From positions 186,001 through 250,000 of the forward strand of contig NZ_QWLD01000003.1 of the NCBI RefSeq assembly GCF_003600155.1: DNA of 64,000 nucleotides. The letters are read 5' to 3'. The translations under genes were made by a program, and so were the position numbers. The notes beneath the pieces were generated by a model. The model did not search any database. It saw only the letters and a list, made by a program, of their open reading frames with translations, and was not told where the DNA came from. Source of the DNA: Nesterenkonia muleiensis (GTDB taxonomy: Bacteria; Actinomycetota; Actinomycetes; Actinomycetales; Micrococcaceae). Within the stretch, counting starts at the first letter, position 1; every line of letters begins with the position of its first letter. This document shows positions 20,094 through 41,781 of the stretch, in pieces.

Positions 20094-20126
20094 GCTCCTA
20101 TATTCCCACGCGGGGAGGAGTCTGCC

Positions 20127-20969: not shown

Positions 20970-20980
20970 AGTAACTCCTC

Positions 20981-22923: not shown

Positions 22924-22955
22924 GCTTACTCCCTGGTGCGTAGTTCTGATGTCGG

Positions 22956-24179: not shown

Positions 24180-24270
24180 AAACGATGCTTCTTTCCGGTC
24201 GAGGTGCGGCGCACCTATACGTCATTGTGGGCCAGTCTGCGAGCCGTTCAACCCCTTGAAACCCTGAGAA

Positions 24271-24282
24271 TGGACCGGTCCA
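24271..24282. promoter_or_regulatory. operator TGGACCGGTCCA (site A)
   Basis: This is a perfect 12-bp palindrome between the divergent 22956-24179 gene and the dehydrogenase remnant at 24340. It abuts the -10 of the minus-strand promoter, so bound repressor would block initiation. It is one of four near-identical sites in the island and has the central CG of LacI-family operators. Confidence 0.8.
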
Positions 24283-24283
24283 A

Positions 24284-24313
24284 ATTCTAGAGATCAGCGC
24301 TGACAGGTGTCAA
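24284..24313 (-). promoter_or_regulatory. sigma-70-type promoter for the 24179-20127 operon
   Basis: On the minus strand TTGACA (24313-24308) and TAGAAT (24289-24284) are separated by 18 bases and followed directly by operator site A. The same geometry recurs at two other sites. Confidence 0.7.
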
Positions 24314-24339
24314 CACACCACCAAATGAGAGAACTCTTT

Positions 24340-25018
24340 ATGCCGAAGATCATTCGCGTCGCAGTTGTCGGAGCCGGCTTGGCCGGTCAAGCTCATGCGT
24401 TCGGATACCGCAACGCTGCGATGGCCGATGTCCTGAGCCGCGTGCGAGTCGAGCTCGACACTATCGTCGACCCGAACAGCGCACTCGCCGATGAAGTCGC
24501 AACGCGCTATGGATTCGCACGCACTCCCGCATCGATCGACTAGATCCTCGATGATACGCGCAGAGAAGCCAGTCGGCGCCACTGCCACAGAGGCCGCAGA
24601 AATGGCAGAGATCGCGGCAACACGGCCGGACCAGATCGCGGCGGTCGGATTCTCTTCCTACCGGCATATCCCTGCTACGGCTGCCGAGCGGTGGCCGAGG
24701 GTCGCATCGGCCGCCCATACTTCGGCCGCGCCCACTACTTCGCCGACTATACACTCGACCCACACAGTGCCCGCACCTGGCCTTTCGTCCAGCAGGCCAG
24801 CGGAGGAGGCACACTCATCGAGTACCCCATGCCGACCGGGGAGCATGGGGCGCTCTGCGACTGTCTCAGAGACCGAGTTCGGCGAAGCCAGCAACGATGA
24901 CACGGCACTGCTCACTGTTCTCTTCGAATCAGGGGCAGTCACCTCATACGATGCGCGTGGTGCCGGCGGACCTGGACAGCTCAGCAGAGCGCCGTCCAGT
25001 GATCGTGGCACCGTATGA
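24340..25018 (+). pseudogene. degraded Gfo/Idh/MocA oxidoreductase
   Basis: ATG 24340 begins a good N-terminus (IRVAVVGAGLAGQAHAFGYR, like the intact enzyme at 38264) that stops at TAG 24541-24543 after about 67 residues. The next recognisable text, EKPVGATATEAAEMAEIA and VGFSSYRHIPA, comes after a missing stretch of about 60 residues in another frame. VAEGRIGRPYFGRAHYFADY follows in a third, and TALLTVLFESGAVTSYDARG ends it. Internal deletion plus several shifts make it clearly dead. It is divergent from the intact operon across operator site A. Confidence 0.8.
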
Positions 25019-25029
25019 TCAGTAGTTCT

Positions 25030-25680
25030 ATGACTACCATCCCGCGCACCGTCACCATGGACTCCGTAGCCGAGGAGGCCGGGGTCTAGCGAGCCACTAT
25101 GCCCTGGCTTATCACGGGGTAAAGGGACTGAGCCAGGCATCGATTCAGTGGCCACCGATGACCGTCTTGGCGGCATCATCGCCACGCAGCATTTGCTTGA
25201 GCTTGGCCACCGCAGCGTCACCCACCTCTCCCCTCCGAACGGCGACCTCGATCATGCACGCCGCGATGGGTACCGCGAGACGATACTCCAGGCCGGTATC
25301 GCCCCCGGACGAGATTGACACCGGGTTTTCGATCGATGACGCTACGACTACTGCCGTCGGGTTGCTGCACAGGGCAGACCGCCCGACTGCGATCTTCGCC
25401 GATAACGACGTAGCTGCTCCTGGGGGTGCTCACCGCAGCTGCCGACTTGGGTATCAGGGTTCCGCAGCAACTGTAGGTCGTAAGCTACAACAATACACAG
25501 GCTGCTTGACTTCCCGGCATCGGGCTCACACCCATCGACCAGCATGCGCTACGTCTCGGGCAGCTTGGAGCGGAGTATGCTCTCGAGGCACTGGGCTTGG
25601 GCAGCTCTGCGCGACCCGACGCCCCGAGACAGACTCTGCTGACTCCCTCGCCTTGCCATCGTTCTTCGATGGCACCGCCT
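25030..25680 (+). pseudogene. degraded LacI-family regulator
   Basis: ATG 25030 starts a LacI HTH (VTMDSVAEEAGV) that meets TAG where Ser is expected. A large part of the sugar-binding domain is deleted. The text resumes as ATQHLLELGHRSVTHLS, later ADLGIRVPQQ with further stops, and LGQLGAEYALEALGLG near the C-terminus. The boundaries are approximate at the 3' end. Confidence 0.75.
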
Positions 25681-25707
25681 CCATGAGGCAGCGCATCACG
25701 CCTATGG

Positions 25708-25750
25708 CCGGGGCACCTGCTTAACCTGTCCGGTTGAGCAGGTGCCCCGG
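25708..25750. terminator. strong bidirectional hairpin terminator
   Basis: CCGGGGCACCTGCT (25708-25721) pairs perfectly with AGCAGGTGCCCCGG (25737-25750). Five inner pairs (one G-T wobble) close a five-base loop, TGTCC. It sits between the decayed lacI on the plus strand and the end of the ABC operon on the minus strand, so it can end transcripts from both sides. Confidence 0.8.
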
Positions 25751-25774
25751 TCACAACTCACCTCGATTGCGGAG

Positions 25775-26722
25775 TTAGCGTTCTTGTTCGGGTAGGTCCA
25801 CGATCTTCACAGCCTCCGTGAGGGGCACTTTTCCGACCCCGGCTGCGGAGTCGTGCTGTACCTCATCGCGGATCGCGCGCACCTCGCTGGTGTCCGTACC
25901 CGCGTCACGCAGCTCGTGCACCAGCTGCTCAAGTTCGGCTCCACCAGCCATGAGCCCGGTGAGCTCTTCGAGCGTGATCTCGTCCTTCTCGTAGTAGCCG
26001 ATGTTCTGGCCACGTTTGAGGAGCAAGAACCGGTTGCCCACCGGATAGGCATGGTGCGGGTTGTGCGTAATGAACACCACGCCCAGGCCGCGTTCACGAG
26101 CCTGGATGACGTACTTGAGCACCACACCCGACTGCTTCACCCCCAATGCTGCGGTCGGCTCGTCCAGGATGAGGACCTTGGCGCCGAAATACACCGCCCG
26201 GGCAATCGCCACGCACTGACGCTCACCACCGGAGAGGGTGCCGATCGGCTGCTCAACATCACGCAGGTCAATGCCCATGTCGAGCAGTTCCTTCTTCGCA
26301 GTCTCTTTCATGAAGGGGATATCCAGCCGCCTAAACGGACCCCATCCCTTCGTGGTCTCAGATCCAAGAAAGAAATTGCGCCACACCGGCATGAGCGGCG
26401 CCACCGCGAGATCCTGGTACACGGTCGCGATGCCGTAATTGAGCGCCTCACGCGGTGAGCCGAGCTTCACCGGCTCGCCCTCGATCTCAAATACACCTCC
26501 GTCGTGCTGGTGCAGGCCCGCGATGATCTTGATGAGGGTGGACTTGCCGGCGCCATTGTCGCCGAGCACGCACATCACCTCACCAGCGCCTACCTTCAAA
26601 CTCACGTCACGCAGGGCGATGATGTTGCCATACCGCTTCTCGGCTTCACGAAGTTCAACAAGGGGTGGGTCAGCATCCCCGGCCTGCCTCGCAGACGTCA
26701 CCTGTTCAGCTTGGGCGTTCAT
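25775..26722 (-). CDS. sugar/cyclitol ABC transporter ATP-binding protein
   Basis: The 315-residue protein has one ABC domain: Walker [13 protein letters not shown], signature LSGGERQ, Walker [12 protein letters not shown], and an H-loop in FITHNPHHA. It is the short FrcA-like type of the ribose/fructose/inositol import family rather than the double-domain RbsA type. A charged C-terminal extension of about 50 residues follows. ATG 26722 has AGGAGG upstream and overlaps the permease stop by 4 bp. It energises import by the two genes upstream. Confidence 0.93.
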
Positions 26723-27777
26723 GTTTTCCTCCTGCCTCCTCCCTTGGCCGCTCGCCTCTGGAGCGAGAAGTTCAATACGGTAGCGCCCAGCAGCATCGCG
26801 CCAAGGAAGAACCGCAGCCAATCCGGGTTCCACTCCGCATACACCACACCGCTCAGCGCCATGCCATAGATCAGGGCACCAATGGCGCCACCGATGGCCG
26901 AACCATAACCACCAGTGAGCAAACACCCACCGACCACCGCGGCAACAATATAGAGGAACTCGTTACCGATACCCTCACCCGACTGCACAGTCCGGAAAGC
27001 GAACAGGTTGTGCATGCCCAACAGCCACGCGCAGAACCCGACACCCATGTACAGGCCAATCTTGGTGCGCCACACGGGCACGCCGACCGCACGGGCCGAC
27101 TCGGGAGCGCCGCCAGACGCGTAGATCCAGTTGCCGACCTTTGTGCGGCGCAGAATCCACGTCGCAAGGATCACCAGCGCAATCCAATAGATCACCGTGA
27201 TGCGCAGGTTCACCCCGAAAATCGGGACGCTGGAGGCAAAGACCGCCGCGGCCGAGTCAAACCCTGGCCACTGTGCAATCGAGGGCGAGGCCACCCCACC
27301 AGTGATCATTCTCGTGACCCCCAGGTTCAACCCTGTGAGCATGAAGAATGTGGACAGGGTAACGATGAAGCTCGCCAGCCTCGTCTTCATCAACAACCAA
27401 CCATTGATGAAGCCCACGCCGAGTGAGAACACCAGGCCGAGAAGTACGCCGACCCACACGTTCGTGCCGAACCAGTACACGAACAACGACGCCGACAGCG
27501 CACTGGATATCACCGCGACGCCAGTCGAGAGATCGAACTCCCCACCGATCATCAGCAGTGACACACCCAGCGCCATGATGCCGACCGTCGAGGCACCATA
27601 CAATATTGTTGCCATGGAAGATGGCTGGGTGAACTGCGGCGCAGTGATCGCGAAAATTGCGAACACCACTACCGCACCGGCTACTGCGCCGGCCTCGGGC
27701 TTCGTGAAGAACTTCGTAAACCAGTTCCCCGAAGCAACACGCTCATCTTTCGGTACAGTCTTAGCTGTGCTATTCAT
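26719..27777 (-). CDS. sugar/cyclitol ABC transporter permease
   Basis: The 352-residue protein has about ten membrane helices and the BPD_transp_2-type permease pattern. Examples are [18 protein letters not shown] near the first third and [17 protein letters not shown] before the coupling region. It forms the membrane channel with the ATPase downstream, which overlaps it by ATGA. The arrangement binding protein, permease, ATPase is that of ribose/inositol importers. Confidence 0.93.
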
Positions 27778-27810
27778 CAGCTGCCACTCTCTTTCAGCCT
27801 GGTATCCCGT

Positions 27811-28857
27811 CTAGCCCTCGTCCTCATCATCGGGTGCCTGCTCGTCCTCATCAGAATCCGAGTCAGCACCGTCCTCGAACTGGGCGGCGACCGTGTCCAA
27901 GTTCTCAGGAGTGATGACCGCCGGGCCGGTAAGCACGGCCTGGCCACCGCCAAGTATGTATCCCCCGGAGTCGTAGAGCCGGACCGCCTCGATACTGGAG
28001 TAACCCTGCAGCCAGGGCTGCTGGTCCGAGGCGAAAGCCATATCTCCGTCCCTAATGGCGTTATACACATCGCCGCTCACATCCGTGGTGGCAACTTGAG
28101 CATCGCTTCCAGCATCGGCAACCGAGTCGATTGCGGTCATGCCGAAAGGCGCGCCGAGGGCAACCACAAAGTCGATGTCGGAGTTTGTCTGCAGGCTTGA
28201 AGTGATCGTCGAGGCAACATTGGTCATGTCCTGACCATTGACATACACAACTTCGGACTGCCCGTCATAGGTATCGGCGAGACCCTCGCAGCGGGCTTCC
28301 AGTCCAACGTGGCCCTGCTCCTGGATCACGCAGATCGCGCGGTCCGATCCCTCTTCGTTGAGCTGCTCACCGACTGCCTGGCCGGCGATGTACTCATTCT
28401 GTCCAAAGTGCGCCAGGACTCCCATCTCAGCGTATTCATCTTCGCCAGCATTAATGCTGTACACAGGGATATCTGCGGCAAGCGCGTCCTGCACAGCACT
28501 TGACATAGCCTCTGGCGTAGCAAGAGTGACCACGATTCCGTCTACGTTCTGCTCGATTGCCTGGCTCACGAGCAGGGCCTGCCCCGAGGCCTCTGGGTCA
28601 CTCGAGTACAGCAGATCGATATTATTGCGCTCTGCCGAGGCCTCGGCACCACTGCGAACAATATCCCAGAAGGTGTCACCAGGAGCCTGGTGGGTAATGA
28701 GGGCGACGCGCAAATCGTCTTCCTCGACGCCACCATCGCCTGCGCCACCTCCAGCACCTGCCGGACCACCGCCACACGCAGCGAGCGTCAAAGCTGCTAC
28801 CGCGGCGATTCCTGCGAATCCAAATTTTGTCCAGCGCCGTTGATCTGACGTCGACAT
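27811..28857 (-). CDS. substrate-binding lipoprotein of the sugar/cyclitol ABC transporter
   Basis: The 348-residue protein has a lipoprotein signal with lipobox LAAC (Cys at about residue 28) and a Gly-rich linker. A periplasmic-binding-protein type I fold follows (LRVALITHQAPGDTFWDIV, DGIVVTLATPEAM). The C-terminus is highly acidic, with a D/E-rich tail after PENLDTVAAQFED. ATG 28857 is eight bases from GGGAG and is preferred to GTG 28866. It should capture a sugar or cyclitol outside the membrane. Inositol or a relative is likely from context. Confidence 0.92.
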   Translation of the reverse strand: MSTSDQRRWTKFGFAGIAAVAALTLAACGGGPAGAGGGAGDGGVEEDDLRVALITHQAPGDTFWDIVRSGAEASAERNNIDLLYSSDPEASGQALLVSQAIEQNVDGIVVTLATPEAMSSAVQDALAADIPVYSINAGEDEYAEMGVLAHFGQNEYIAGQAVGEQLNEEGSDRAICVIQEQGHVGLEARCEGLADTYDGQSEVVYVNGQDMTNVASTITSSLQTNSDIDFVVALGAPFGMTAIDSVADAGSDAQVATTDVSGDVYNAIRDGDMAFASDQQPWLQGYSSIEAVRLYDSGGYILGGGQAVLTGPAVITPENLDTVAAQFEDGADSDSDEDEQAPDDEDEG

Positions 28858-29111
28858 AGATTTCACTCCCTCATCTATTTGAACTTATGGCGTTCAAAGC
28901 GTTCGCCCTCAGTTTCGCGTTATCACAACATCGCTGCCTTTGGGGTAGGCCCAGTGATGCTTTGATAACACCCAGTGCTTGACGGCGGCTGATATGCGCT
29001 GATCGGCAACGCTACAGCCAGAACGCTGGCCAATGCTGCCGTCCAACGCCCGGTTCCACACTTCCGGTCAGCCGTCCTGACAACATGGTCTACATAATGT
29101 CCTGACAAACT
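28858..29111 (-). promoter_or_regulatory. long untranslated leader of the ABC operon with inverted repeats
   Basis: About 250 bases separate the operator-linked promoter from the binding-protein start. The stretch contains GTTATCA (28919-28925) and TGATAAC (28963-28969) as an inverted repeat, and TTGAAC/GTTCAA (28879-28897) close to the start codon. No gene is visible. The repeats could form RNA structure or extra regulator sites. Confidence 0.35.
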
Positions 29112-29123
29112 TGAACCGGTCCA
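29112..29123. promoter_or_regulatory. operator TGAACCGGTCCA (site B)
   Basis: The site differs by one base from the perfect palindrome. It abuts a minus-strand promoter with TTGACA (29154-29149), an 18-bp spacer and CACAAT (29130-29125), the same geometry as sites A and C. It controls the ABC importer operon. Confidence 0.75.
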
Positions 29124-29275
29124 AATTGTGACATGGCTCTCAGTCAATTGTCAATACATGACTTGCCGACACGGTTCACCAGCTTGAGATGTGGTTGACG
29201 GTCTGCCAGTCACTCATGAAAAACCGCATGTACAGCACTGTCACGCTCCATCCAGATCACGTGCTGGACTGGGCC

Positions 29276-30238
29276 TCAGCACTGGGCGGCAAAGGCGGGG
29301 GACCCTCCCTCGAGGGTGGCAGTGACTGCTTCGGCGGCCATGCGAAACGTGGCCACCATCGCCCCCTCCGACAAGCCCGTGGTATGCGGACTCAGCAGCA
29401 CGCGCGGATCGCCCGCCAACGGATGCCCCTGCACCGGCTCAGCCGCAAACACATCGAGGCCTACTCCGCCCAGCACACCCTCGTCGAGCGCGACGCGCAG
29501 GGTTTCAGCGTCGACCAGATCAGCACGAGCGCAGTTCACGAGCACCAACCCGGGCCGCGCGCTGCGCAGAAGCTCGATCGGCAGCAATTCCCCGCCACCG
29601 CCTGGCAGATGCAGCGTGATCGCGTCGGCCTCGCGCGCTGCGTCTGTCAGTGAGACATTCTCATGAGTCTCAGACTGCACATAGGGGTCATGCACTATCA
29701 CTCGCATCCCGAAGGCCTCACCGAATCCAGAAATGATGCGGCCGATGCGACCGTAGCCGAGCACCGCCAGCGTCTTGCCGTACAGATCTCCCGGTACCGG
29801 CACCGCCTCAAAGCCCCACCGGCCAGAGGCGACGAAGGCGTTCGACTCGCCAACCCGCTTCACCAGTGAGGCGATCATCCCAAATGCGCCCTCGGCGACC
29901 GCACGGCTGTTGCTTCCCGGTGTCACCGCTACGGCGATGCCGCCTTCCGCACACGCTTCGACATCGACGCGATCCACACCGACACCCGTGCGGGCAACGA
30001 CCCGCAGGTTCGGCATCCGCGCAAGCAGCGCTCGGCCCACGTCATATGCCGCACGCACAATCGCGCCGTCGGCCTGAGCAAGGTCATTCGCAGACGGCTC
30101 GACGACGAACACCACGTTCTCAGGCAGATGCGGCAGAACCAAAGCCGGATCGACTGGTCCCAGACCGACGACCACTGGGGCCCTTGCCGAAGATGTCCCA
30201 TCCCGATCGAGTCCTGCTAGCCTCTCACCCTGTGGCAT
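29276..30238 (-). CDS. D-isomer-specific 2-hydroxyacid dehydrogenase (phosphoglycerate dehydrogenase-like)
   Basis: The 320-residue enzyme has the NAD-binding motif LAVLGYGRIGRIISGFGEAF, the catalytic Arg in VNCARADLVD, Glu in DVFAAEPV and His in LSPHTTGLSEGA. It should interconvert a 2-keto acid and a D-2-hydroxy acid with NAD(H). It overlaps the aldolase stop upstream by 14 bp and ends the operon that starts at 34576. It may process a product of the aldolase. Confidence 0.92.
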   Translation of the reverse strand: MPQGERLAGLDRDGTSSARAPVVVGLGPVDPALVLPHLPENVVFVVEPSANDLAQADGAIVRAAYDVGRALLARMPNLRVVARTGVGVDRVDVEACAEGGIAVAVTPGSNSRAVAEGAFGMIASLVKRVGESNAFVASGRWGFEAVPVPGDLYGKTLAVLGYGRIGRIISGFGEAFGMRVIVHDPYVQSETHENVSLTDAAREADAITLHLPGGGGELLPIELLRSARPGLVLVNCARADLVDAETLRVALDEGVLGGVGLDVFAAEPVQGHPLAGDPRVLLSPHTTGLSEGAMVATFRMAAEAVTATLEGGSPAFAAQC

Positions 30239-31043
30239 GCTTCACCCCGAGTCCCTCGGGAATCGAGGCGCGAACAGTTGAGGCGAGCAGCGTCGCGTCA
30301 GAACCGAGCGCGAGAAACCCAAAGCCACGGGCACGATACCGATCGATCGTGGCGCGGTCGTTGGCTAGAATCCCGGCAACTTTGCCGTGCCGCCGGCACA
30401 CATCGACCACTCGGTCGAGTACCTCCTGAAACCCGGGGTCATCGAACTGGCGCGGCACTCCGAGCGCGTAGCTCAGGTCCTGCGGACCGACAAAGAGAAC
30501 GTCGGCTCCGGGGGTCGCAGTGATGGCCTCGAGATCATCGACTGCGCCCCGAGTTTCTATTTGCACGATGCCGATGGCCTGCTCATTCGACCGGTCTAAT
30601 GCCGCCGTGTCCAGGGTCCAACGGGCTGCACGGTTGTAGCTCGCGACCCCGCGTCCGCCTTCGGGCGGGTACAGCTGGTGACTGCGTGCCTCTGCCGCCT
30701 CGGCAGCACTGGATATGCGCGGAAACATCACGCCTGCGGCACCCGAATCAAGGGCACGGCCGATGCGAATCCGCTCCGGCTGCTCAACGCGCACCAGCGT
30801 GGCAGTCCCGTAAGCTCCAACGGCGGCGACAATGGCACCGACCTGATCCTCATCGCCGCCACCGTGCTCGAGGTCGACCAGCACCCAGTCAAGTCCTGCC
30901 GCAGCGCACACCTCGGCCGCGCTCACCGAACCGAGCCCCAGAAATGTGCCGATAGTTGTCTCACCCGCGAGAAAACGCTCACGAAGGGTGCGCCCGGCGA
31001 CCAGCGGCCCCCCTGCGTGGCGTGCTCCCCCTGCACAGCTCAT
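30225..31043 (-). CDS. HpcH/HpaI family aldolase
   Basis: The 272-residue protein resembles class II pyruvate-dependent aldolases: TLRERFLAGETTIGTFLGLG, DWVLVDLEHGGGDEDQ, GVMFPRISSAAEAE-like text, and ETRGAVDDLEAI with the metal-binding Glu. It should split a 2-keto-4-hydroxy acid into pyruvate (or a relative) and an aldehyde. ATG 31043 overlaps the stop of the IolD-like gene (ATGA). With the aldehyde dehydrogenase and hydroxyacid dehydrogenase of the same operon it suggests ring cleavage followed by retro-aldol cleavage. Confidence 0.9.
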   Translation of the reverse strand: MSCAGGARHAGGPLVAGRTLRERFLAGETTIGTFLGLGSVSAAEVCAAAGLDWVLVDLEHGGGDEDQVGAIVAAVGAYGTATLVRVEQPERIRIGRALDSGAAGVMFPRISSAAEAAEARSHQLYPPEGGRGVASYNRAARWTLDTAALDRSNEQAIGIVQIETRGAVDDLEAITATPGADVLFVGPQDLSYALGVPRQFDDPGFQEVLDRVVDVCRRHGKVAGILANDRATIDRYRARGFGFLALGSDATLLASTVRASIPEGLGVKHATG

Positions 31044-33034
31044 CCGTGCCACCGCTGCAGCGTAAGGCCCTCACTGTATTCGCCGAGCTTTTCGGAGGTG
31101 TCAACATGTTCCCAGACTTCAGCAGGTGAAACATCCCACCATGCTCCTGCAGAGGGCAAGTCGGCGTGCGGAATCGTGGGCACCACGATGACGACCGGGC
31201 CGCGCACATCGCGAGTCTCATCGAGCGCTGCGCGCACCTCTTGGCTGGTGGTTGCCTTCCGCACCTCAGCCCCAAGTCCTCCGGCGATCTGCGCGAGATC
31301 GATCTTCAGATAGTCGCCTTCCAGACGATTCTCCCGCGCAGCAGCCATTTCAGCCTTGTGGACAGCACCGACCAATGCCCCTGCAGCAGCTTCCGCGCCG
31401 GGGCCTTCGCGATAGCGGAACTCATTGCCGAAGTGCTCTCCTGTGCGCCACATCTGCAGTCGGCGGATCACCTGGTAGCCGTGATTCTCGGAGATGACAA
31501 GGGTGAACGGGATGCTTTCCTGGGCCGCGGTAACGATTTCGGTGGGCATCATGATGAAGGTGCCATCGCCGATGAACGCAGTCACCCGGTGCGCGGGATC
31601 GGGATCGGCAACCCGCACGCCCATCGCCGCGGGCAGCTCGTAACCCATGCAGGAGAAGCCGAACTCAAGATGCGCCGTACGCCCCTGAGTCGCGTCCCAC
31701 ACCTTTTGCAGGTCACCAGGAGGCCCACCAGCGGCTGCCACGATCGTGTCACCCGCCTGGGCGTGCTCGTGCAGCAGCCCGATGAGCTGTCCCTGAGTCA
31801 GCACGGCATCGGTGTCAGGCAGCTCCGAGTGCTCCTCCTTCGGGAATCGCGTATCAGGGTCCAGCGCAGCAGCACGAGCGGGAAGCCACTCAGCCCGAGC
31901 TGCTTCGACCCTTTCGCCCCAGACTGCCGGCACACGGTAATTCTCCAGCTCCGCGGTGAGCCCCTCGAGTGCGAGTCGGGCATCGGCGATGGCTGCAGTG
32001 GCACCCTGTTTCACGGCGTCGTGCTCGACGATGTTGATGGATGCGAAGCGCACTGCGGGGTTTGCGAACAGCGACTGCGATCCGGTGGCGAAGTCGGTGA
32101 GCCTGGTGCCGATATGCACGATGAGGTCGGCTTCGGCGGCCAGCGCGTTCGTGGTCGGCGATCCCTCAAGGCCGATGCCGAAGGCTCCCCACGGCCCGTC
32201 TTCGGTAAGCGCGCCTTTGCCGCCAAAGGTCTCAGTGATGGGCAGCCGAGTCTGCTTGCCGAGATCGGTCAGTGTCTGCTGCGCTTCGGAGTAGATGACA
32301 CCTCCACCTGCAATGACCAAAGGTTTCTCGGCCTGTTTGATCAGCGAAGCGACCTGGGCGACTTCATTGGTGTCCGGCACACGACGGCGGATCACCCACT
32401 CACACTCCTCAAAGAACTCCACGGGGAAGTCGCAGGCGTGCGACTGAACGTCTTGTGGCAATGCCACCACGGCAGCTCCGGTTTCCTCGGGGTTGGCGAG
32501 CAAGCGGAACGCCTGCGGCAGCGCGGTGAGCAGCTGCTCTGGGCGGGCAATGCGGTCGAAGAAACGCGAAACGGGGCGGAATGCATCATTCGCAGTCACA
32601 TCTGGGGTACCCGGCAGATCGAGCTGCTGAAGCACCGGGCCCTGGCGTCGAGTGGCGTAGGTATCCCCGGGGAAAAGTAGCAGCGGAATGCGGTTGACCG
32701 TCGCCAGCGCTGCAGCGGTCACAAGATTTGTCGCGCCAGGACCGATCGAGGCGGTGACAGCGAGTGTCTGGCGCCGCTTGGTTGCCTTCGCGAAGCCGGT
32801 GGCCATGTGGCCCAGTGCCTGCTCGTTGCGCCCTTGCACGAATGGCAGGCGGTCTGCGTGTTCAGCCAACGCCTGTGCGAAACCGGCGACGTTGCCGTGG
32901 CCGAAAATGCCGAGCGCTGCGGGCACGAAACGTCGGGCCTGGCCATCAGCGACCGAATACTGGGCCGAGACGTAGCGCACAATGGCTTGTGCGGCGGTGA
33001 GGCGTACTGTCTGCCCCGAGATTCCCTGAACCAT
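31040..33034 (-). CDS. IolD-like thiamine-diphosphate ring hydrolase (second copy)
   Basis: The 664-residue protein is a paralogue of IolD (3D-(3,5/4)-trihydroxycyclohexane-1,2-dione hydrolase). Shared segments include GIFGHGNVAG, GRNEQALGH with the ThDP-activating Glu, and DAFRPVSRFFDR. The ThDP-binding GDGTFIMMPTEIVTAA runs to SENHGYQ. It should open a cyclic 1,2-dione. It sits with an aldehyde dehydrogenase and an HpcH/HpaI aldolase, not with iolB and iolC, so its substrate or product fate probably differs from the canonical enzyme at 45928-47853. Confidence 0.88.
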   Translation of the reverse strand: MVQGISGQTVRLTAAQAIVRYVSAQYSVADGQARRFVPAALGIFGHGNVAGFAQALAEHADRLPFVQGRNEQALGHMATGFAKATKRRQTLAVTASIGPGATNLVTAAALATVNRIPLLLFPGDTYATRRQGPVLQQLDLPGTPDVTANDAFRPVSRFFDRIARPEQLLTALPQAFRLLANPEETGAAVVALPQDVQSHACDFPVEFFEECEWVIRRRVPDTNEVAQVASLIKQAEKPLVIAGGGVIYSEAQQTLTDLGKQTRLPITETFGGKGALTEDGPWGAFGIGLEGSPTTNALAAEADLIVHIGTRLTDFATGSQSLFANPAVRFASINIVEHDAVKQGATAAIADARLALEGLTAELENYRVPAVWGERVEAARAEWLPARAAALDPDTRFPKEEHSELPDTDAVLTQGQLIGLLHEHAQAGDTIVAAAGGPPGDLQKVWDATQGRTAHLEFGFSCMGYELPAAMGVRVADPDPAHRVTAFIGDGTFIMMPTEIVTAAQESIPFTLVISENHGYQVIRRLQMWRTGEHFGNEFRYREGPGAEAAAGALVGAVHKAEMAAARENRLEGDYLKIDLAQIAGGLGAEVRKATTSQEVRAALDETRDVRGPVVIVVPTIPHADLPSAGAWWDVSPAEVWEHVDTSEKLGEYSEGLTLQRWHG

Positions 33035-33112
33035 GATGAATAGCTCCCTTGTTGCTGTTTGCCTGAAGATTGTTCAGCTGTGCGGGTCAACCAGGTCTGC
33101 GAGCCGTCAGCC

Positions 33113-34576
33113 CTACCCGTGCATGATGACGGTCTTTACCTCCGTCATTTCCTCAACCGCCGAGCGCACGCCCTCCTTGCCGTAGCCGCTGGCCTTGAGA
33201 CCCCCGTACGGCATGAGGTCGGCACGCCAGAAAGGAGTCCACCCGAGGTGGATGCTGCCGGCGTCGATCTCGCGCATAGCACACAACCCCTCGCTGAGGG
33301 TGCCCCCGAAAACTCCCGCTGCCAGCCCATAAGCAGTGCCGTTGGCAGCGTCAATCCCGGCGTCGAAGTCATCAACGGTGGTGACTGCGACGGCGGGACC
33401 GAACAGCTCATCCTGCGCGAGCTTCTGGCGGGTGTCGACACCGGTCACCACGGCTGGTGAGACGAAAGTCGCGTCACGCTCGCCACCTGTGAGCAGACGC
33501 GCTCCCTCTGAGACGGCCTGCTCAATGCTCTTCTCGACACGAGTCGCCTCCTTCTCGGTGATCAGCGGGCCGAGTGTCGTGCCCTCAGCAGACGGGTCAC
33601 CCATGCGGATCTCTGCGACCTTAGGCAGCAACGCGTCCAGGAAGTCAGTCTCAATGCCTCGGTGCACGATCACCCGCTGCACCGAGATGCAGACCTGCCC
33701 TGCATTGACGTAGCCGCCAGCAGCCACTGCAGCAGATGCCTTTTCGATGTCGGCACCGGGAAGGATGAGCGTGGGTGAGGAAGCACCAAGCTCGAGCGAC
33801 AGCTTCTTCACGCCCGCGATAGAGGCGATCCGCTCCCCCACTCCGGTCGAGCCGGTAAACGAAATCTTGCGCACCCGCGGATCGGTGACCAGCGCGTCGC
33901 CGAGCAGTCCACCTGGTCCGGTGAGCACTGAGAGCACGCCTTCCGGAACGCCGGCATCGATGAACGCTTCTGCAAGAGCCAGCGCTGTAAGCGGCGTGGT
34001 GGTGGCGGGCTTGAGAATGACCGCGTTGCCCGATGCCAGAGCCGGAGCCACCTTGTGCAGCACCAGTAGAGCAGGGTAGTTGAATGGAGTGATGGCGGCG
34101 ACGATACCCACAGGCTGGCGCAGCGTGAACCCGGCCTTGTCCTGTCCGGTACCCGGGTTCGCGTCGAGCGGGAGACTATCCCCGTAGAGCTGGGTGCCCT
34201 CGTAGGCAGAGAGGCGAATGATTGCCCCCGAACGACGAGCCTCTCCGTAGGCCTCTCCAAGCGGCTTGCCGTTCTCGGCCGAGATGATCGCAGCGATGTG
34301 GTCTGCGCGCTGCTCGGCAATATCAGCAGCGCGGTTCAGGATCACTGCGCGCTCATGGGCAGGTGTGCGTCGCCAGATAGCAGCACCGGCTTCTGCGGCA
34401 TCGACTGCGACCATCACATCGAGGGTCGAGGCGACCGCGACTTCGCCGACGGTGCGGCCGTCGAAAGGCGATCGCACCTCTGTGCGCTTACCGTCCGCAG
34501 CCTCCCGCCATTCGCACCCAATGACCAGGCCAAAGCTCACTCTGTCGCTGCTGACGGAGGTGCTTTCTACGCTCAT
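33113..34576 (-). CDS. NAD(P)-dependent aldehyde dehydrogenase
   Basis: The 487-residue ALDH has ITPFNYPALLVLHKVAPAL, the cofactor region FTGSTGVGERI, the general-base Glu in LELGASSPT, and the nucleophilic Cys in NAGQVCISVQR. It lacks the GERCMA signature of methylmalonate-semialdehyde dehydrogenase, which is encoded at 48890. It is more like glycolaldehyde/lactaldehyde-type enzymes and may oxidise the aldehyde released by the downstream aldolase. ATG 34576 follows AAGGG. It is the first gene of the operon behind operator site C. Confidence 0.92.
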   Translation of the reverse strand: MSVESTSVSSDRVSFGLVIGCEWREAADGKRTEVRSPFDGRTVGEVAVASTLDVMVAVDAAEAGAAIWRRTPAHERAVILNRAADIAEQRADHIAAIISAENGKPLGEAYGEARRSGAIIRLSAYEGTQLYGDSLPLDANPGTGQDKAGFTLRQPVGIVAAITPFNYPALLVLHKVAPALASGNAVILKPATTTPLTALALAEAFIDAGVPEGVLSVLTGPGGLLGDALVTDPRVRKISFTGSTGVGERIASIAGVKKLSLELGASSPTLILPGADIEKASAAVAAGGYVNAGQVCISVQRVIVHRGIETDFLDALLPKVAEIRMGDPSAEGTTLGPLITEKEATRVEKSIEQAVSEGARLLTGGERDATFVSPAVVTGVDTRQKLAQDELFGPAVAVTTVDDFDAGIDAANGTAYGLAAGVFGGTLSEGLCAMREIDAGSIHLGWTPFWRADLMPYGGLKASGYGKEGVRSAVEEMTEVKTVIMHG

Positions 34577-34608
34577 CGCTGCCCTTTCATCCTGCATCAC
34601 CATTGATT

Positions 34609-34622
34609 TTGGACCGGTCCAA
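34609..34622. promoter_or_regulatory. operator TTGGACCGGTCCAA (site C) with promoter
   Basis: This is the full 14-bp perfect palindrome. The minus-strand promoter reads TTGACG (34652-34647), an 18-bp spacer and TAGAAT (34628-34623), directly followed by the operator. It controls the aldehyde dehydrogenase/IolD-like/aldolase/dehydrogenase operon and lies right after the lacI gene at 34665. Confidence 0.82.
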
Positions 34623-34664
34623 ATTCTAGACACATGGCGAGTTTCGCGTCAAGATCGTCACAAT

Positions 34665-35720
34665 TTACTGGGACGAGCCTCGCACCACAAGGCGCGGTGG
34701 TATCAGCACCTCGCGAGGTGCTGTATGAACAGGGCCGACCGCAGATTCTTCCGCGCCTGCACGCTCCATGGCAGCAAGCAGCTCATCGGCTGACTCGCGA
34801 CCGATACGGCGGTTCATCGGGTCCACTGTTGTCAGTGAGATACGAGGAATCGCCGCCAGGGTCGAGTCATCGTATCCCGTGACTTTGCAATCCTGCGGTA
34901 CGGAAATTCCGGCTGCCTCAAGGGCGCTGATGACACCTATGGCAACGAGGTCGTTGACCGCAACGACAGCTTCAGGGGATTCTCCCTCGGAAAGGCTTCG
35001 TTCGATTGCTCGCCGGGCATCCTGCTCCGTCAGCCCAGTCCGTTCTACTTTTCCTGAGGCTTCGAGACCACGCCGACGCAGCGCCGCATGGAAGGCGCGC
35101 TCGCGGGTCGCCGAGACCGTCCCACCGCTGCCACCGACGAAGACGATATGACGCATCCCTTGGTCGACCAGATGATCGACCACAAGCGAAATTCCTGCCT
35201 CATCATCTGTGCGCACTGTGGCAATGGTGTCATCGGTGGCATCGATCGCACTGGCAACGACGGTCGGCATGGCTGCTGTGAACTCAGCGAGCTCAGCGAA
35301 TTGGGGAACAGTCCCCACAGTGATGAGCCCGGCTGGGCGGAGGTCGCGCAGCATGGCGAGGTTGTCCTGGTCGAGCAGGGACTCGCCTTTGTCGCGGTCG
35401 TTGTCGACCTGGGCAGTGACGATCATCGTGGGCTTGCCTGCATCGCTGAGCCGGGCCTTCACCGCGCCCACAATCTCTGCGAAGATCGGGTTCGACAGGT
35501 TCGAGACGAGGATTGCGACGATATTTCGCCGACCTGCAGACAGCGACTGCGCGACGAGATTGGGCCGATAACCAAGCGTCTCCGCAGCCTTGAGGACTCG
35601 ATCACGGCGCTCATAGCTCACGTTGCTGCTGCCTTTGAAGACGAGCGAGACCAAGGACTTCGAGACTCCTGCCTCACGAGCGACATCCCGGATCGTGGGA
35701 GCACGCGACTGATCCTCCAT
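34665..35720 (-). CDS. LacI-family transcriptional regulator
   Basis: The 351-residue protein has the LacI HTH (TIRDVAREAGVSKSLVSLVF), the hinge region RPNLVAQSLSAGRR, and a sugar-binding domain with VVAVNDLVAIGV and VTGYDDSTLA. It is a candidate repressor of the TTGGACCGGTCCAA sites, one of which lies 43 bp past its stop. ATG 35720 and GTG 35726 are both possible starts. The gene follows a small membrane protein and iolG in one run. Confidence 0.93.
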   Translation of the reverse strand: MEDQSRAPTIRDVAREAGVSKSLVSLVFKGSSNVSYERRDRVLKAAETLGYRPNLVAQSLSAGRRNIVAILVSNLSNPIFAEIVGAVKARLSDAGKPTMIVTAQVDNDRDKGESLLDQDNLAMLRDLRPAGLITVGTVPQFAELAEFTAAMPTVVASAIDATDDTIATVRTDDEAGISLVVDHLVDQGMRHIVFVGGSGGTVSATRERAFHAALRRRGLEASGKVERTGLTEQDARRAIERSLSEGESPEAVVAVNDLVAIGVISALEAAGISVPQDCKVTGYDDSTLAAIPRISLTTVDPMNRRIGRESADELLAAMERAGAEESAVGPVHTAPREVLIPPRLVVRGSSQ

Positions 35721-35725
35721 GGTCA

Positions 35726-35923
35726 CTACACCCCCTCGAACTGCTGAGCACGGATACTCATGACAACTGATTTACCCGATGACTCCGGAAAGAACCGGAA
35801 GACTCCCTGATCGCTGACATCAATGTACCCCTGAGTCAGCAGCCAGAGCAGGCCGAATGCGCCGACCACCACGATCACGATAATGACCGCTCGGTAGATA
35901 TTGCGCTCGCCTCCACCAGACAT
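35726..35923 (-). CDS. 65-residue single-span membrane protein
   Basis: The protein has a short Gly-rich start, then one strongly hydrophobic helix at about residues 11-30 and a polar domain of about 35 residues, ending EGV. GGAGGAGG-like sequence precedes ATG 35923, so it is well expressed in principle. It lies between iolG and lacI and touches the lacI start. I recognise no family. A role tied to the inositol regulon is only suggested by position. Confidence 0.65.
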   Translation of the reverse strand: MSGGGERNIYRAVIIVIVVVGAFGLLWLLTQGYIDVSDQGVFRFFPESSGKSVVMSIRAQQFEGV

Positions 35924-35963
35924 GAAACGCCTCCTCCATCACCTGGCCAATCCCCGATCCGTC

Positions 35964-36971
35964 CTACTCCTCCACCGAGACCTCGATACCCTCAGTCGCT
36001 GAGCACTGCGCGGCGTCGGCAAGGATCAGGGCCGCGCGACCATCCTCGAAGGTGGGGCTCACCGACGTATCGCCCCGCACGACCTTGACGAACTCGGCAA
36101 GTTCCTCGGCATATGCCTGCATGTACCTCTCAACGAAGAATTCGCCGAAAGCGGGCTTCGCATCCACCGCTGCAGCTGTCGAGCAACTCACCAGGCTGGT
36201 CGGGGCATTCGCCACCTGCAGCATGCCTCCTGCACCGAAAGCCTCGAGGCGCTGGTCGTATCCGATCGCACTGTGGCGAGAGTTGATAACTGTGGCCACC
36301 GCCCCCGAGGCGGCACGCAGTGTGGTCACCGCAGTATCGAAATCTCCATGGCGCTGCGCTCCTGCGTCAAAAGCCCGGGTCCCGATAGCGTTGACTGAGA
36401 CGATGTCTTCAAGGAAGAAACGCACCATGTCGAAGTCATGGATGGTCATATCGCGGAAGATGCCGCCGGAAACCGCAATGTACTCTGCTGGCGGAGGAGC
36501 AGGATCGCGGCTGATAATGATGAGCTGCTCAAGATCACCGATCTCGCCGGCTGCGATGCGCGCTCGAGTAGCTGCGAAGTCGCGGTCAAAGCGGCGGTTG
36601 AATCCGAGCGTGACGGGCACCCCGCTCGATTGCACCAGCGGGCGCAACGCATCGACGCGAGCAATGTCAAGATCGATGGGTTTTTCGCAGAGGGTCGGCA
36701 GCCCTGCCCGGACAGATGCCTCGATGAGATCAACGTGCGTGGGTGTTGGTGAGGCAATGAGTACCGCATCGATTTCGCCCGAAGCGATGAGCTCTTCGGG
36801 CGACTCGGTAGCAGTGCCGCCGAACCGCTCAGTCACACTGCGTGCACCTTCGATGAAAGGGTCAGCAACCCAGGACAGCCGCGTCTCGGGACTCGCCGCA
36901 ATGCTCGCGGCGTGCACCTGGCCGATACGCCCAGTGCCGATGAGTCCGATCCGAACCGGGGTCTGCGTCAT
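35964..36971 (-). CDS. iolG: inositol 2-dehydrogenase (IolG type)
   Basis: The 335-residue enzyme is a close match to IolG. It has IGLIGTGRIGQVHAASIA, LCEKPIDLD with catalytic Lys, GFNRRFDRDFAA, and TIHDFDMVRFFL carrying the Asp/His pair. It oxidises myo-inositol to 2-keto-myo-inositol (scyllo-inosose) with NAD+. ATG 36971 follows AAAGGAGCAGC. It lies downstream of operator site D. Several other Idh-family genes are present, but this one has the clearest IolG features. Confidence 0.92.
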   Translation of the reverse strand: MTQTPVRIGLIGTGRIGQVHAASIAASPETRLSWVADPFIEGARSVTERFGGTATESPEELIASGEIDAVLIASPTPTHVDLIEASVRAGLPTLCEKPIDLDIARVDALRPLVQSSGVPVTLGFNRRFDRDFAATRARIAAGEIGDLEQLIIISRDPAPPPAEYIAVSGGIFRDMTIHDFDMVRFFLEDIVSVNAIGTRAFDAGAQRHGDFDTAVTTLRAASGAVATVINSRHSAIGYDQRLEAFGAGGMLQVANAPTSLVSCSTAAAVDAKPAFGEFFVERYMQAYAEELAEFVKVVRGDTSVSPTFEDGRAALILADAAQCSATEGIEVSVEE

Positions 36972-37042
36972 TGCTGCTCCTTTGCGTGCAGGGGTGGGAC
37001 GACCGCGCCCACGCACTCCCTCATGTCATATCAGTCGAAAAG

Positions 37043-37073
37043 AGTATACGGGCTTTGGACCGGTCCAGTTCAA
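37043..37073 (-). promoter_or_regulatory. iolG promoter with operator TGGACCGGTCCA inside the spacer (site D)
   Basis: The perfect 12-bp palindrome occupies 37056-37067. On the minus strand TTGAAC (37073-37068) and TATACT (37048-37043) are 19 bp apart, with the operator in the spacer. This is a different placement from sites A-C, where it follows the -10. Repression by occlusion is expected either way. Confidence 0.65.
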
Positions 37074-37085
37074 TCCTTCCAATGG

Positions 37086-38102
37086 TCAGCGCATCAACGG
37101 TGCCGTCGAACTGCGCACAACCATGCGCGGCTCAACAAGCTCTGGCGCGCGGCTACTCGATTCAGCGCCAGCACTCCCTTCAATAAGCTCGGCCAAAGTG
37201 CGGCCGGCGGCCCTGCCAAGTTCTCGCATGTCACCGTTCACTGACGTGAGTGCGATGAGCTCGTATGCTGCGAGTGGCGAATTATCGTAGCCGACAACTG
37301 ACAGATCCTGCGGCACCCTGAGTCCTCGGTCCTGCGCCGCACCGATCACCCCGACTGCCATGGGGTCATTGACAGCGAACACCGCAGTGGGCCGAGGAGC
37401 CGCAGATCCTTCTGCCGTGAATACCTGGGAGATTGCAGTGTGCGCCGCCGCCTCGCTCGTCTGCTCTGCGCGCAGCACTTGTGGTGCGAGCTTCCGTTCG
37501 CGCATCTCCGTCAGATAGCCGGCCTCTCTGGCCGCGGCGCTCGCGCCTGAAGCGCTGACGCAGGCGATATTTCGATGCCCGAGGTCGGCGAGATGCCTTA
37601 CGGCGAGACAACCTCCCGCCGTCTCATCACTAGCGATCACAGGAGCAGCTCCTGCGCTGATCGCCCGGGTGCCAAGAATGACTGTCGGCGCGGTGAACCG
37701 CTCCACAGCCGCACGCGGCACTTCTCCGGCAAGCACCAGCCCGTCGACGCGCAGAGACCGGAACACCTCGAGGGGGTTGAGGCTGAGGTGCGCGTTCAAC
37801 GCGATGTCAGCAACGCTCAGACTGTAACCGCCACCGGCAAACGATTCGCGCAGCCCCGCAAGAGCGGTCGCGAACCACAGGTTTTCGAAGTCATCGATCA
37901 CTACGCCGATGCTCCGAGTCCGGGTTCCGGCAAGTCCGGCCGCGAGCCGGCTCGGCGTGTAGTCCAGGTCTGCTACAGCCGCCAGCACCGCCTCACGCTT
38001 CTCCGCGCTCACCTGAGGAGAATCGCGCAGGACAAGTGAAACGAGGGATTTGGAGACACCCGCGCGCTCGGCGACATCGTAGATCGTCGGCGTTTTTCGC
38101 AT
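37086..38102 (-). CDS. LacI-family transcriptional regulator
   Basis: The 338-residue protein has HTH TIYDVAERAGVSKSLVSLVL, hinge YTPSRLAAGLAG, and effector-domain motifs VFAVNDPMAVGV and VVGYDNSPLAAYE. ATG 38102 is nine bases from GGAG and is preferred to GTG 38126. It is divergent from the dehydrogenase at 38264 across the variant operator ATTGGAGCGCTCCAAT. It may be autoregulated through that site and may also act on the TGGACCGGTCCA sites. Confidence 0.93.
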   Translation of the reverse strand: MRKTPTIYDVAERAGVSKSLVSLVLRDSPQVSAEKREAVLAAVADLDYTPSRLAAGLAGTRTRSIGVVIDDFENLWFATALAGLRESFAGGGYSLSVADIALNAHLSLNPLEVFRSLRVDGLVLAGEVPRAAVERFTAPTVILGTRAISAGAAPVIASDETAGGCLAVRHLADLGHRNIACVSASGASAAAREAGYLTEMRERKLAPQVLRAEQTSEAAAHTAISQVFTAEGSAAPRPTAVFAVNDPMAVGVIGAAQDRGLRVPQDLSVVGYDNSPLAAYELIALTSVNGDMRELGRAAGRTLAELIEGSAGAESSSRAPELVEPRMVVRSSTAPLMR

Positions 38103-38164
38103 CGGCAGCTTCTCCCAGGATGACACATTGACAGGTCGACCTGATCAAGATTAGCGTAAGCACT

Positions 38165-38180
38165 ATTGGAGCGCTCCAAT
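38165..38180. promoter_or_regulatory. variant operator ATTGGAGCGCTCCAAT (site E)
   Basis: This perfect 16-bp palindrome has the same TTGGA/TCCAA arms as sites A-D but GCGC instead of CCGG in the centre. It lies between lacI (minus) and the 38264 dehydrogenase (plus). On the plus strand TTGACA (38130-38135), an 18-bp spacer and TAGCGT precede it, so it follows the -10 as in sites A-C. Confidence 0.75.
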
Positions 38181-38263
38181 TCTCGACGCAGACCATACTC
38201 GTGACCCATTCCGTGCATCGGGGCCTACATTCCCCGCCCCTACAATCTCCCGAAAGGCCCCAC

Positions 38264-39466
38264 ATGACTCAGTCACTCGGCGTCGCCGTCATCGGCGCAG
38301 GCATGGCAGGAAAAGCCCATGCCGCCGCCTACCGCGCAGCTTCGACTATCTACAAGCCGACGCTCCCCGAGATCCACCTGATCTCGATCGCTGACATCAA
38401 CGTCGAACTCGGCACGGAGGCTGCCGCGCGCTATGGGTTCCAGCGTCACGATGTCGAGTGGCGTGCCATCGTCGACGATCCCGCAGTCGATGTTGTCAGC
38501 GTCGTGGTCGCGAATTTCCTGCACCGTGAAATCGTCGAGGCATTGCTCGCCGCAGGCAAGCACGTGCTCTGCGAGAAACCGCTCAGCGATACACTCGATG
38601 ACGCACGCGCGATGGCAGAAGCCGCCCACAGCGCCGAGGAGAAAGAGATCCTCGCCCGCATCGGCTACAGCTATCTGCGCGCTCCGGGCATTACGTTCCT
38701 CGGCAGTCTCATTGACGACGGCAGACTCGGTGAAATGCTGCACTTCTCGGGGCGGTACTGGACAGACTACGGCTGCCACCCTGACGCACCGATGAGCTGG
38801 CGCTACCAGGGTCCGGCGGGTTCAGGCGCACTTGGTGACGTAGGCAGTCATCTCTCCTACATCGCGGAATACCTCTGCGGCGAGGTACAGGAAATTTCAG
38901 GGGGCCGTTTGTCGACCGCGATCAATGAGCGTCCTCAACCACTGGGCAATGTGGTCGGACACAGCCGTGGCAATGTCAGCAACGAGTTCTCTCCCGTAGA
39001 GAACGATGATTATGCAAGCTTTAACGCGAAGTTCGCGCGCTGTGTCGGCACACTCGAAGTATCACGGGTTGCGGCAGGCCACCCCAATGACCTGTACCTT
39101 GAGGTTTTCGGCTCCAAGGGTGCAGCCCGCTGGTCGCAGACCAATCCCTCCCAGGTCGAGGTACTTCTGCACGACGAGCAGGCCGACGTTGCCGGGTACC
39201 GGGTGGTGCCGCTCGGCCCGGCACATCCGCGCTACGCCGGCGGCTGGGCTATGGACGCTCCGGGGGTCGGCATCGGCCAGAACGATCTGTTCGTACACCA
39301 AGCGCGCGCCTTCCTCGAGGAGATCGCGGGCATTCCCGAGGCAGAGTCACTGCCGCGCTGCCGCACCTTCGTCGATGGTGTGCACAACATGGAATTCCTG
39401 GCCGCAGTCGCGGATTCGGCAGCCGCCGGTGGATCTGCCATCCCCATTTCCTCAGAAATTAATTGA
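38264..39466 (+). CDS. Gfo/Idh/MocA family oxidoreductase
   Basis: The 400-residue enzyme has GVAVIGAGMAGKAHAAAYRA, VLCEKPLSDTLDDA with the conserved Lys, and GSHLSYIAEYLCGEV in the catalytic region. The long C-terminal domain is like levoglucosan dehydrogenase-type members. ATG 38264 follows GAAAGG; an upstream ATG lacks a ribosome site. It overlaps the region before the isomerase at 39499 and forms a two-gene unit with it under operator site E. The substrate is unknown. Confidence 0.92.
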   Translation: MTQSLGVAVIGAGMAGKAHAAAYRAASTIYKPTLPEIHLISIADINVELGTEAAARYGFQRHDVEWRAIVDDPAVDVVSVVVANFLHREIVEALLAAGKHVLCEKPLSDTLDDARAMAEAAHSAEEKEILARIGYSYLRAPGITFLGSLIDDGRLGEMLHFSGRYWTDYGCHPDAPMSWRYQGPAGSGALGDVGSHLSYIAEYLCGEVQEISGGRLSTAINERPQPLGNVVGHSRGNVSNEFSPVENDDYASFNAKFARCVGTLEVSRVAAGHPNDLYLEVFGSKGAARWSQTNPSQVEVLLHDEQADVAGYRVVPLGPAHPRYAGGWAMDAPGVGIGQNDLFVHQARAFLEEIAGIPEAESLPRCRTFVDGVHNMEFLAAVADSAAAGGSAIPISSEIN

Positions 39467-39498
39467 CCGCAGATACCTCATCCAATCAAGGAGCACTC

Positions 39499-41734: not shown

Positions 41735-41781
41735 AGGACCTTTCGCCTGACGCTGGTCATGACCAGGGAGCACAGGTTATC

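Follow-up and report, generated by a model that had tools for sequence, protein, structure and literature searches.

The 64,000-nucleotide stretch of the Nesterenkonia muleiensis genome analysed here (positions 186,001 to 250,000 of contig NZ_QWLD01000003.1, hereafter the window) holds an island of linked catabolic operons with near-identical palindromes at four promoters and two intact lacI genes. Does one operator unite these promoters, and which LacI protein reads it? The comparisons described below make it very probable that the island is a local LacI-family regulon, in which the protein that we call LacI-1 would repress four promoters through a shared palindrome. The elements on which this reading is built are the following:

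24270 to 24283, minus strand: operator A, TTGGACCGGTCCAT as read toward the gene, heading the operon of GfoA, an IolE-like protein, GfoB and a short-chain dehydrogenase (SDR); a 14-mer match, present at the orthologous Leucobacter promoter
29111 to 29124, minus strand: operator B, TTGGACCGGTTCAA, heading the genes of an ATP-binding cassette (ABC) importer (solute-binding protein, SBP; permease; ATPase); kept in Leucobacter
34609 to 34622, minus strand: operator C, the perfect palindrome TTGGACCGGTCCAA, heading the operon of an aldehyde dehydrogenase (ALDH), an IolD-like protein, an aldolase and a 2-hydroxyacid dehydrogenase
37055 to 37068, minus strand: operator D, CTGGACCGGTCCAA, heading iolG, with lacI-1 further down; kept in Leucobacter
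24284 to 24313, minus strand: predicted promoter A, TTGACA-18-TAGAAT, abutting operator A directly
29125 to 29154, minus strand: predicted promoter B, TTGACA-18-CACAAT, abutting operator B directly
34623 to 34652, minus strand: predicted promoter C, TTGACG-18-TAGAAT, abutting operator C directly
34665 to 35726, minus strand: LacI-1, likely repressor of A to D, from its Pfam LacI helix-turn-helix (HTH) and Peripla_BP_3 domains and the linkage of the operator in relatives
37086 to 38126, minus strand: LacI-2, likely regulator of the sister operator E (see below) and of GfoC, from Pfam domains and the position of the site in Leucobacter

Compared as 14-mers with TTGGACCGGTCCAA, operators A, B and D show one mismatch each and C none. 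An operator-blind promoter scan of positions 20000 to 39500 on both strands returned five promoter-like sites (mean of 4.1 in shuffled sequences), and the three best sigma-70-like matches, with 11, 10 and 10 of 12 as opposed to 9 for the other two, are promoters A, B and C. Site D has a geometry unlike that of A to C, since its operator is located 6 bp upstream of TATACT and not after the -10 element. From this arrangement we infer that A to C lie on the predicted transcription start and D in the spacer between the -35 and -10 elements, both of which would be blocking positions for a repressor. The preliminary description of this stretch had pointed out near-identical palindromes at the four places and, for A to C, the succession of TTGACR, 18 bp, TAGAAT or CACAAT and the operator at once; both observations are borne out, with the 14-mers containing the cores named there and the claim on geometry having covered A to C only.

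The same description had considered chance unlikely and had proposed to scan the whole genome and related genomes with the 14-bp motif. In the genome assembly (3.68 Mb, 57 contigs, 98% complete), at most one mismatch to TTGGACCGGTCCAA occurs in just four places, which correspond to A to D and all fall within a 12.8-kb part of the island, whereas a first-order Markov model based on the window gives expectations of 0.49 for the whole genome and 0.0017 for a stretch of 12.8 kb. Using as a control the reversed motif with the same mismatch limit, we found 26 places at up to two mismatches versus 31 for the control; thus, the motif is specific at no more than one mismatch only. The whole-genome and reversed-motif controls agree with the earlier judgement, and a chance origin of the palindromes is rejected on their basis. 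Operators are therefore present at the predicted promoters of several linked catabolic operons and are specific to them in the genome, as is typical of a local regulon.

The consensus of 73 sites, including the four of the window, is an even palindrome of 16 bp with a central CG, TTTGGACCGGTCCAAA. With the corresponding weight matrix, A to D score between 23 and 30 in the window, a site at 38166 scores 16.6 and the next best place 12.6. No second operator was found within 100 bp of any of A to D among the 14 best-scoring places of the window. A weak site, TTCGACCGGTCTAA, is located at 30586-30599 inside the aldolase gene and could be either an auxiliary operator or a product of chance; it was dropped as a member of the regulon, since matches with up to two mismatches are noise genome-wide.

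In two Leucobacter species, LacI-1 has orthologues 72-73% identical to it, and the surrounding gene order is alike. The genomes of L. ruminantium and L. celer contain 4 and 4 sites with at most one mismatch (0 and 0 for the reversed controls), and in both genomes all four sites precede the orthologues of GfoA, SBP, ALDH and IolG. In eight comparisons between the window and Leucobacter, the operators are identical at 106/112 bases (95%), whereas the ungapped flanks are identical at 123/468 (26%), that is, at chance level. The 30-bp promoters of A to C are identical at 84/180 bases, and TTGAC is found 29 or 30 bp ahead of the operator in nine of nine A to C promoters from the window and the two Leucobacter species. 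A third species, L. tardus, presents another operon layout and a single site, before ALDH. In other words, the orthologous operons of other genomes are preceded by the same operator, again as in a local regulon.

Within the family of the window, the exact motif occurs in 8/395 genomes, compared to 4/395 for the control. The eight comprise the window's own genome, three in which the motif lies inside a coding frame (L046-L048, set aside as chance) and four genomes of one other genus, which we take to be Rothia (hereafter the Rothia group). In all four Rothia-group genomes, a LacI-1 homologue (44-46% identity) stands beside orthologues of ALDH, the IolD-like protein, the aldolase, the 2-hydroxyacid dehydrogenase, GfoA and the IolE-like protein. 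When up to one mismatch is allowed, these genomes contain 3, 5, 4 and 3 sites and the reversed controls 0; 12/15 of the sites precede orthologues of island genes or, in two genomes, the gene of a sugar transporter of the major facilitator superfamily (MFS). In particular, two operators precede ALDH, with a spacing of 42 bp in one pair of genomes and of 57 bp in the other pair; one operator precedes the GfoA orthologue in G142 and G295; and one precedes the MFS transporter gene in G307 and G326, alike in both by eye and on another contig in one of them.

Doubling of the operator was observed beyond this group as well. Spacings of 42-44 bp, about four helical turns, are found in two Rothia-group, four Brevibacterium and one Sinomonas loci (L053, L065, L076, L077, L081, L083, L139), and other spacings are the 57 bp of two Rothia-group loci (L055, L056) and 18 bp in Curtobacterium (L088, L098); the window has single copies.

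A wider sample consisted of the best 80 LacI-1 relatives listed when one genome was scanned per species. In 58/80 of these, the locus contains a site with no more than one mismatch (69 sites in all), whereas the reversed motif occurs in 2 loci; when the relatives titled Streptomyces are excluded, 21/28 loci contain a site. Considering only homologues of island genes, 64/69 sites are located no more than 400 bp upstream of the start of such a homologue, and 0/69 fall inside one unless they are also near a start. The operator is kept together with much of the gene set in Rothia, Brevibacterium, Curtobacterium, Sinomonas and uncultured actinobacteria; it precedes ALDH orthologues in Leucobacter, Rothia and Brevibacterium, and it lies between divergent genes for LacI and a GfoA homologue in Streptomyces and Rhodococcus. 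In one uncultured actinobacterium, an operator with one mismatch is found about 75 bp before iolC (over the family cut-off), which ties the regulon to inositol.

Some of these loci show peculiarities of their own. In the uncultured actinobacteria L085, L089, L112, L120, L138 and L146, the operator is asymmetric or shifted (TTGGAGCGGTCCAA, TTGGACCGCTCCAA, TTGGAACGGTCCAA), and where a neighbour was recognised (4/6) it stands before iolB or iolC. Locus L089 is titled as a metagenome-assembled genome of Bifidobacterium breve, a title that may be mistaken, since the LacI of this locus is placed in the tree next to that of Actinobacteria UBA2541 and those of further uncultured actinobacteria. In L087, L091, L093-L095 and other Streptomyces loci, the first site is accompanied by a weaker operator-like one, located about 80-100 bp away by the lacI start.

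Both intact LacI proteins of the island present the architecture of their family, with the LacI HTH (PF00356) at 57.0 bits in LacI-1 and 58.7 bits in LacI-2 (cut-off 27) and, over cut-off in each, the periplasmic-binding-protein-like sensor domain (PF13377 and PF00532). Ten LacI-type HTHs were recognised in the genome at E <= 0.001, and the helix GVSKSLVSLV is common to the two intact island proteins only. In a tree built by a quick method, with long branches flagged, LacI-1 falls in a clade of 25 members (Leucobacter, Rothia, Brevibacterium, Curtobacterium, Sinomonas, uncultured actinobacteria and others), and LacI-2 groups with two Leucobacter orthologues outside that clade. Furthermore, no separate LacI-2 match at E <= 1e-40 was found in seven of the 13 genomes searched (G142, G295, G398, G399, G400, G401, G403), and these seven hold 2-4 sites of the A to D type. 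Since they keep such sites without a separate LacI-2, LacI-1 is the likely owner of A to D. The earlier proposal that one operator ties the four promoters together thus gains support from genome specificity, one-to-one conservation in Leucobacter and co-occurrence with LacI-1; likewise, its suggestion of a LacI repressor, made from the central CG and the two intact lacI genes close by, is upheld and can be refined to LacI-1 as the likely owner. A rule by which hinge residues would set the operator centre (AQSL in LacI-1, mostly ARSL in its relatives, AAGL in LacI-2) was considered but not adopted, as it concerned one clade and uncultured actinobacteria with ARSL have mixed half-sites.

As for LacI-2, the site at 38166 offers a candidate operator:

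38166 to 38179, no strand assigned: sister operator E, TTGGAGCGCTCCAA, between the divergent lacI-2 and GfoC genes; probably the operator of LacI-2

The types A to D and E differ by one base per half-site (TTGGACC and GGTCCAA versus TTGGAGC and GCTCCAA). In the window, L. ruminantium and L. celer alike, the gap between lacI-2 and GfoC contains the exact TTGGAGCGCTCCAA; in L. tardus, a version with one mismatch lies about 0.1 kb ahead of lacI-2. By number it is not specific, with 2 places at up to one mismatch versus 2 for the control in the window's own genome and 1 versus 1 in L. ruminantium; on the evidence of its position, LacI-2 probably uses this operator. The site falls inside the range covered by the preliminary description, whose reasoning does not name it.

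Several observations weigh against the assignment of A to D to LacI-1, or reduce what the counts can carry. The recognition helix GVSKSLVSLV is identical in LacI-1 and LacI-2, and LacI-2 might bind A to D too; the seed AGVSKSLVS was used in selecting the relatives, so that helix identity among them is partly by construction. A LacI-2 relative of 45-47% identity exists elsewhere in two Rothia-group genomes and one Curtobacterium genome. Three of the 15 Rothia-group sites show no link to the pathway and were not counted, two of them (L067 and L068 of G326) having no window homologue recognised nearby and the other (L069 of G142) lying inside a Gfo/Idh frame. Of the 80 relatives, 52 are titled Streptomyces, and the counts are hence not independent; in three Streptomyces whole genomes, sites versus control amount to 1/0, 3/3 (G407) and 2/2 (G408), so that there only position supports the site, genome totals being hardly above or equal to the control. 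Finally, 22/80 relatives lack a site with at most one mismatch: 15 of them have a site with up to three mismatches within 350 bp upstream of lacI (control 4/22) and seven have none, with L074, L078 and L150 cut off by contig ends.

Three other explanations have to be set against this evidence. According to the one that takes up the shared helix, LacI-2, alone or with LacI-1, would repress A to D by cross-regulation of one operator family, and the location of lacI-2 directly upstream of operator D fits with it, as does the slightly better match of several operator-bearing Streptomyces regulators to LacI-2 than to LacI-1. We nevertheless regard it as rather unlikely, because the seven genomes (out of 13) that yielded no separate LacI-2 match at E <= 1e-40 retain the gene set and operators of the A to D type alongside LacI-1 homologues, because TTGGAGCGCTCCAA is kept ahead of lacI-2 in the window and in three Leucobacter species (with the one mismatch in L. 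tardus), and because LacI-2 stands outside the LacI-1 clade in the quick tree, with its flagged long branches. It is also conceivable, albeit highly improbable, that the palindromes are read by a transcription factor from outside the island and that lacI-1 is a mere neighbour: the binding of LacI-1 to A to D is deduced from sequence, and in one Rothia genome the operator of the MFS gene is on another contig, away from lacI-1. However, an even palindrome with a central CG is the norm for LacI proteins in the available text of PMC4052901, the operator tracks lacI-1 homologues across families, and it is confined to regulon operons in the window genome and in two Leucobacter genomes. We give practically no credence to the idea that the palindromes arose by chance or through duplication of a single promoter. 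Even though A to C are alike over promoter and operator together, the 0.0017 sites expected per 12.8 kb, the 95% identity of operators between species whose flanks are at chance identity and the different arrangement of D all speak against it.

Under the preferred reading, repression of the island by LacI-1, the following mechanism can be hypothesized. LacI-1, presumably a dimer like other members of its family, would bind the 16-bp TTTGGACCGGTCCAAA at the four promoters, covering the predicted start right after the -10 element at A to C and the spacer before the -10 element at D. Either position would block RNA polymerase, and it is this geometry that suggests repression rather than activation. 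An inositol-type cyclitol, or an early product of its breakdown, might then release LacI-1, and the importer, IolG, the IolD-like operon and the GfoA operon, each presumably co-transcribed, would be switched on together. Since lacI-1 lies downstream of iolG behind D, the repressor may limit its own synthesis, and its paralogue LacI-2 probably acts on its own gene and on GfoC by way of TTGGAGCGCTCCAA at 38166.

The genes placed behind these operators are listed here, operon by operon:

22956 to 24179, minus strand: GfoA, Gfo/Idh/MocA oxidoreductase, first gene behind operator A, distantly like levoglucosan dehydrogenase
22039 to 23007, minus strand: IolE-like TIM-barrel protein (TIGR04379, 146 bits, below the cut-off of 290)
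20981 to 22042, minus strand: GfoB, Gfo/Idh/MocA oxidoreductase, no NCBIfam match at E <= 1e-20
20127 to 21017, minus strand: SDR, from family scans
27811 to 28866, minus strand: SBP of the ABC importer, best NCBIfam match a rhizopine SBP (165 bits, below the cut-off of 420)
26719 to 27777, minus strand: ABC permease of the importer, named by translation and gene order; a homologue follows the SBP in Leucobacter
25775 to 26926, minus strand: ABC ATPase of the importer, named by translation; true start probably downstream of 26926
33113 to 34576, minus strand: ALDH, start taken at the ATG at 34576; the listed open reading frame (ORF) begins at 34633, across the operator
31040 to 33034, minus strand: IolD-like hydrolase dependent on thiamine pyrophosphate (TIGR04377, 733 bits, cut-off 715)
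30225 to 31052, minus strand: HpaI/GarL-type aldolase (171 bits, below the cut-off of 369)
29276 to 30238, minus strand: D-2-hydroxyacid dehydrogenase, below the cut-offs of all families listed
35964 to 36971, minus strand: IolG, inositol 2-dehydrogenase (TIGR04380, 371 bits, cut-off 355), start taken at the ATG at 36971; first behind operator D
38201 to 39466, plus strand: GfoC, divergent to lacI-2 and behind sister operator E; an internal ATG may be the true start

A canonical iol set is separate from the island operons, with IolB, MMSDH and a second IolD (over cut-offs) at 45.9-50.7 kb and iolC at about 51.4-52.3 kb of the window. Motif and weight-matrix scans found no operator at iolB, iolC and iolA of the window (44-52.4 kb), and the arrangement of a canonical Iol regulon, with these three genes under the operator, is hence absent here. 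No LacI-1 orthologue was detected in 29 congeneric genomes, the best outside match being 38% identical, the general LacI level; nor does the genus hold an IolD-like orthologue above the level of canonical IolD (congeners 42-43% over the whole length and up to 52% over part of it; own canonical copy 43%). On these two grounds, the island looks accessory in the genus.

The island also contains decayed genes. Divergent from operator A, at 24341-25700 on the plus strand, the remains of a Gfo/Idh gene and, behind them, those of a LacI-like gene can be made out by eye, interrupted by stops and frame shifts. Another decayed LacI gene lies at 18900-20040 on the minus strand, with the HTH GLSPPLVSIVL and an open frame of just 98 amino acids; together with split Gfo/Idh frames at 16.0-17.0 kb, it gives the left side of the island a worn appearance. 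By eye, a small ORF with a membrane-like segment is located between iolG and lacI-1 (35747-35922, minus strand), and a transaldolase-like protein (92.8 bits versus a cut-off of 367) is encoded at 41759-42922 on the plus strand, between two inositol-type gene groups.

What the regulon might be for can be proposed only tentatively, by chemical reasoning from the gene families. As a doubtful possibility, it could serve a second route, separate from the normal inositol pathway and existing alongside it, by which a cyclitol or a cyclitol glycoside would be broken down: IolG, the IolE-like and the IolD-like proteins would open the ring, and ALDH, a Gfo-type dehydrogenase and the HpaI-type aldolase would finish the route without phosphorylation, for example to malonate semialdehyde and hydroxypyruvate, with the latter reduced by the 2-hydroxyacid dehydrogenase and the two paralogous repressors kept apart by their sister operators. 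For a cyclitol cluster conserved from Leucobacter and Rothia to uncultured actinobacteria, the regulon supplies a probable regulator together with its DNA code and gene set, and the ligand releasing LacI-1 would tell which cyclitol the cluster serves. Moreover, the two paralogous repressors, whose operators would differ by a single base in each half-site, would lend themselves to testing how LacI proteins discriminate centres, and the pair of regulator and operator can be of use in annotating inositol-type genes that are still unnamed in Streptomyces and Rhodococcus.

With regard to known systems, the operators of GntR and IdnR of E. coli, which belong to the LacI family, have the ACCGGT centre found here, with another outer half-site, and serve gluconate and idonate genes. 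In open-access text (logos, figures and closed journals lying outside this search), no record of the 14-mer TTGGACCGGTCCAA or of its 12-bp core was found, and among the matches listed for a 9-mer of the motif, judged by titles and the starts of abstracts, there was nothing relevant. Seven LacI-type groups have been predicted for inositol, with their motifs deposited in RegPrecise (Ravcheev et al. 2014, PMC4052901), and in the main text of that paper, as far as available, Micrococcaceae and CCGG give 0 matches. LacI-type inositol regulons are thus already known, and the operator described here has no record in the open-access text searched and may match a RegPrecise entry. The preliminary description had named no known cyclitol regulon with this operator, which agrees with these searches within their scope.

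The GfoA operon and the importer resemble the levoglucosan genes LgdA-LgdB-LgdC, where the accessible portion of PMC10066097 describes a Gfo/Idh dehydrogenase, PF01261 TIM-barrel enzymes, a second Gfo/Idh protein and an ABC importer together. In contrast to that pathway, for which the same portion names no IolD or IolG, GfoA reaches 283 bits versus a cut-off of 650 for levoglucosan dehydrogenase. IolR of C. glutamicum likewise controls genes of inositol uptake and breakdown in an actinobacterium, but is of the GntR type and not of the LacI type (available text of PMC9603128). Corynebacterium IpsA, as presented in the text available of PMC3899939, is a LacI-type, myo-inositol-responsive regulator with a palindromic operator and a central CG, which activates inositol synthesis (ino1) rather than controlling catabolism. 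IolQ of Bacillus subtilis is a LacI-type repressor of an inositol dehydrogenase gene with two sites, binding just downstream of a start site; different from the operators described here, its potential consensus AGAAAGCGCTTTCT has another half-site and centre, and the part of the report available gives one target promoter, an own promoter that is not bound and no inducer found in vitro (PMC5504672). The LacI-type 'IolR' groups, in the available text of PMC4052901, share with the island the LacI family, mostly local regulons, the inositol pathway, even palindromes with a central CG and frequent autoregulation.

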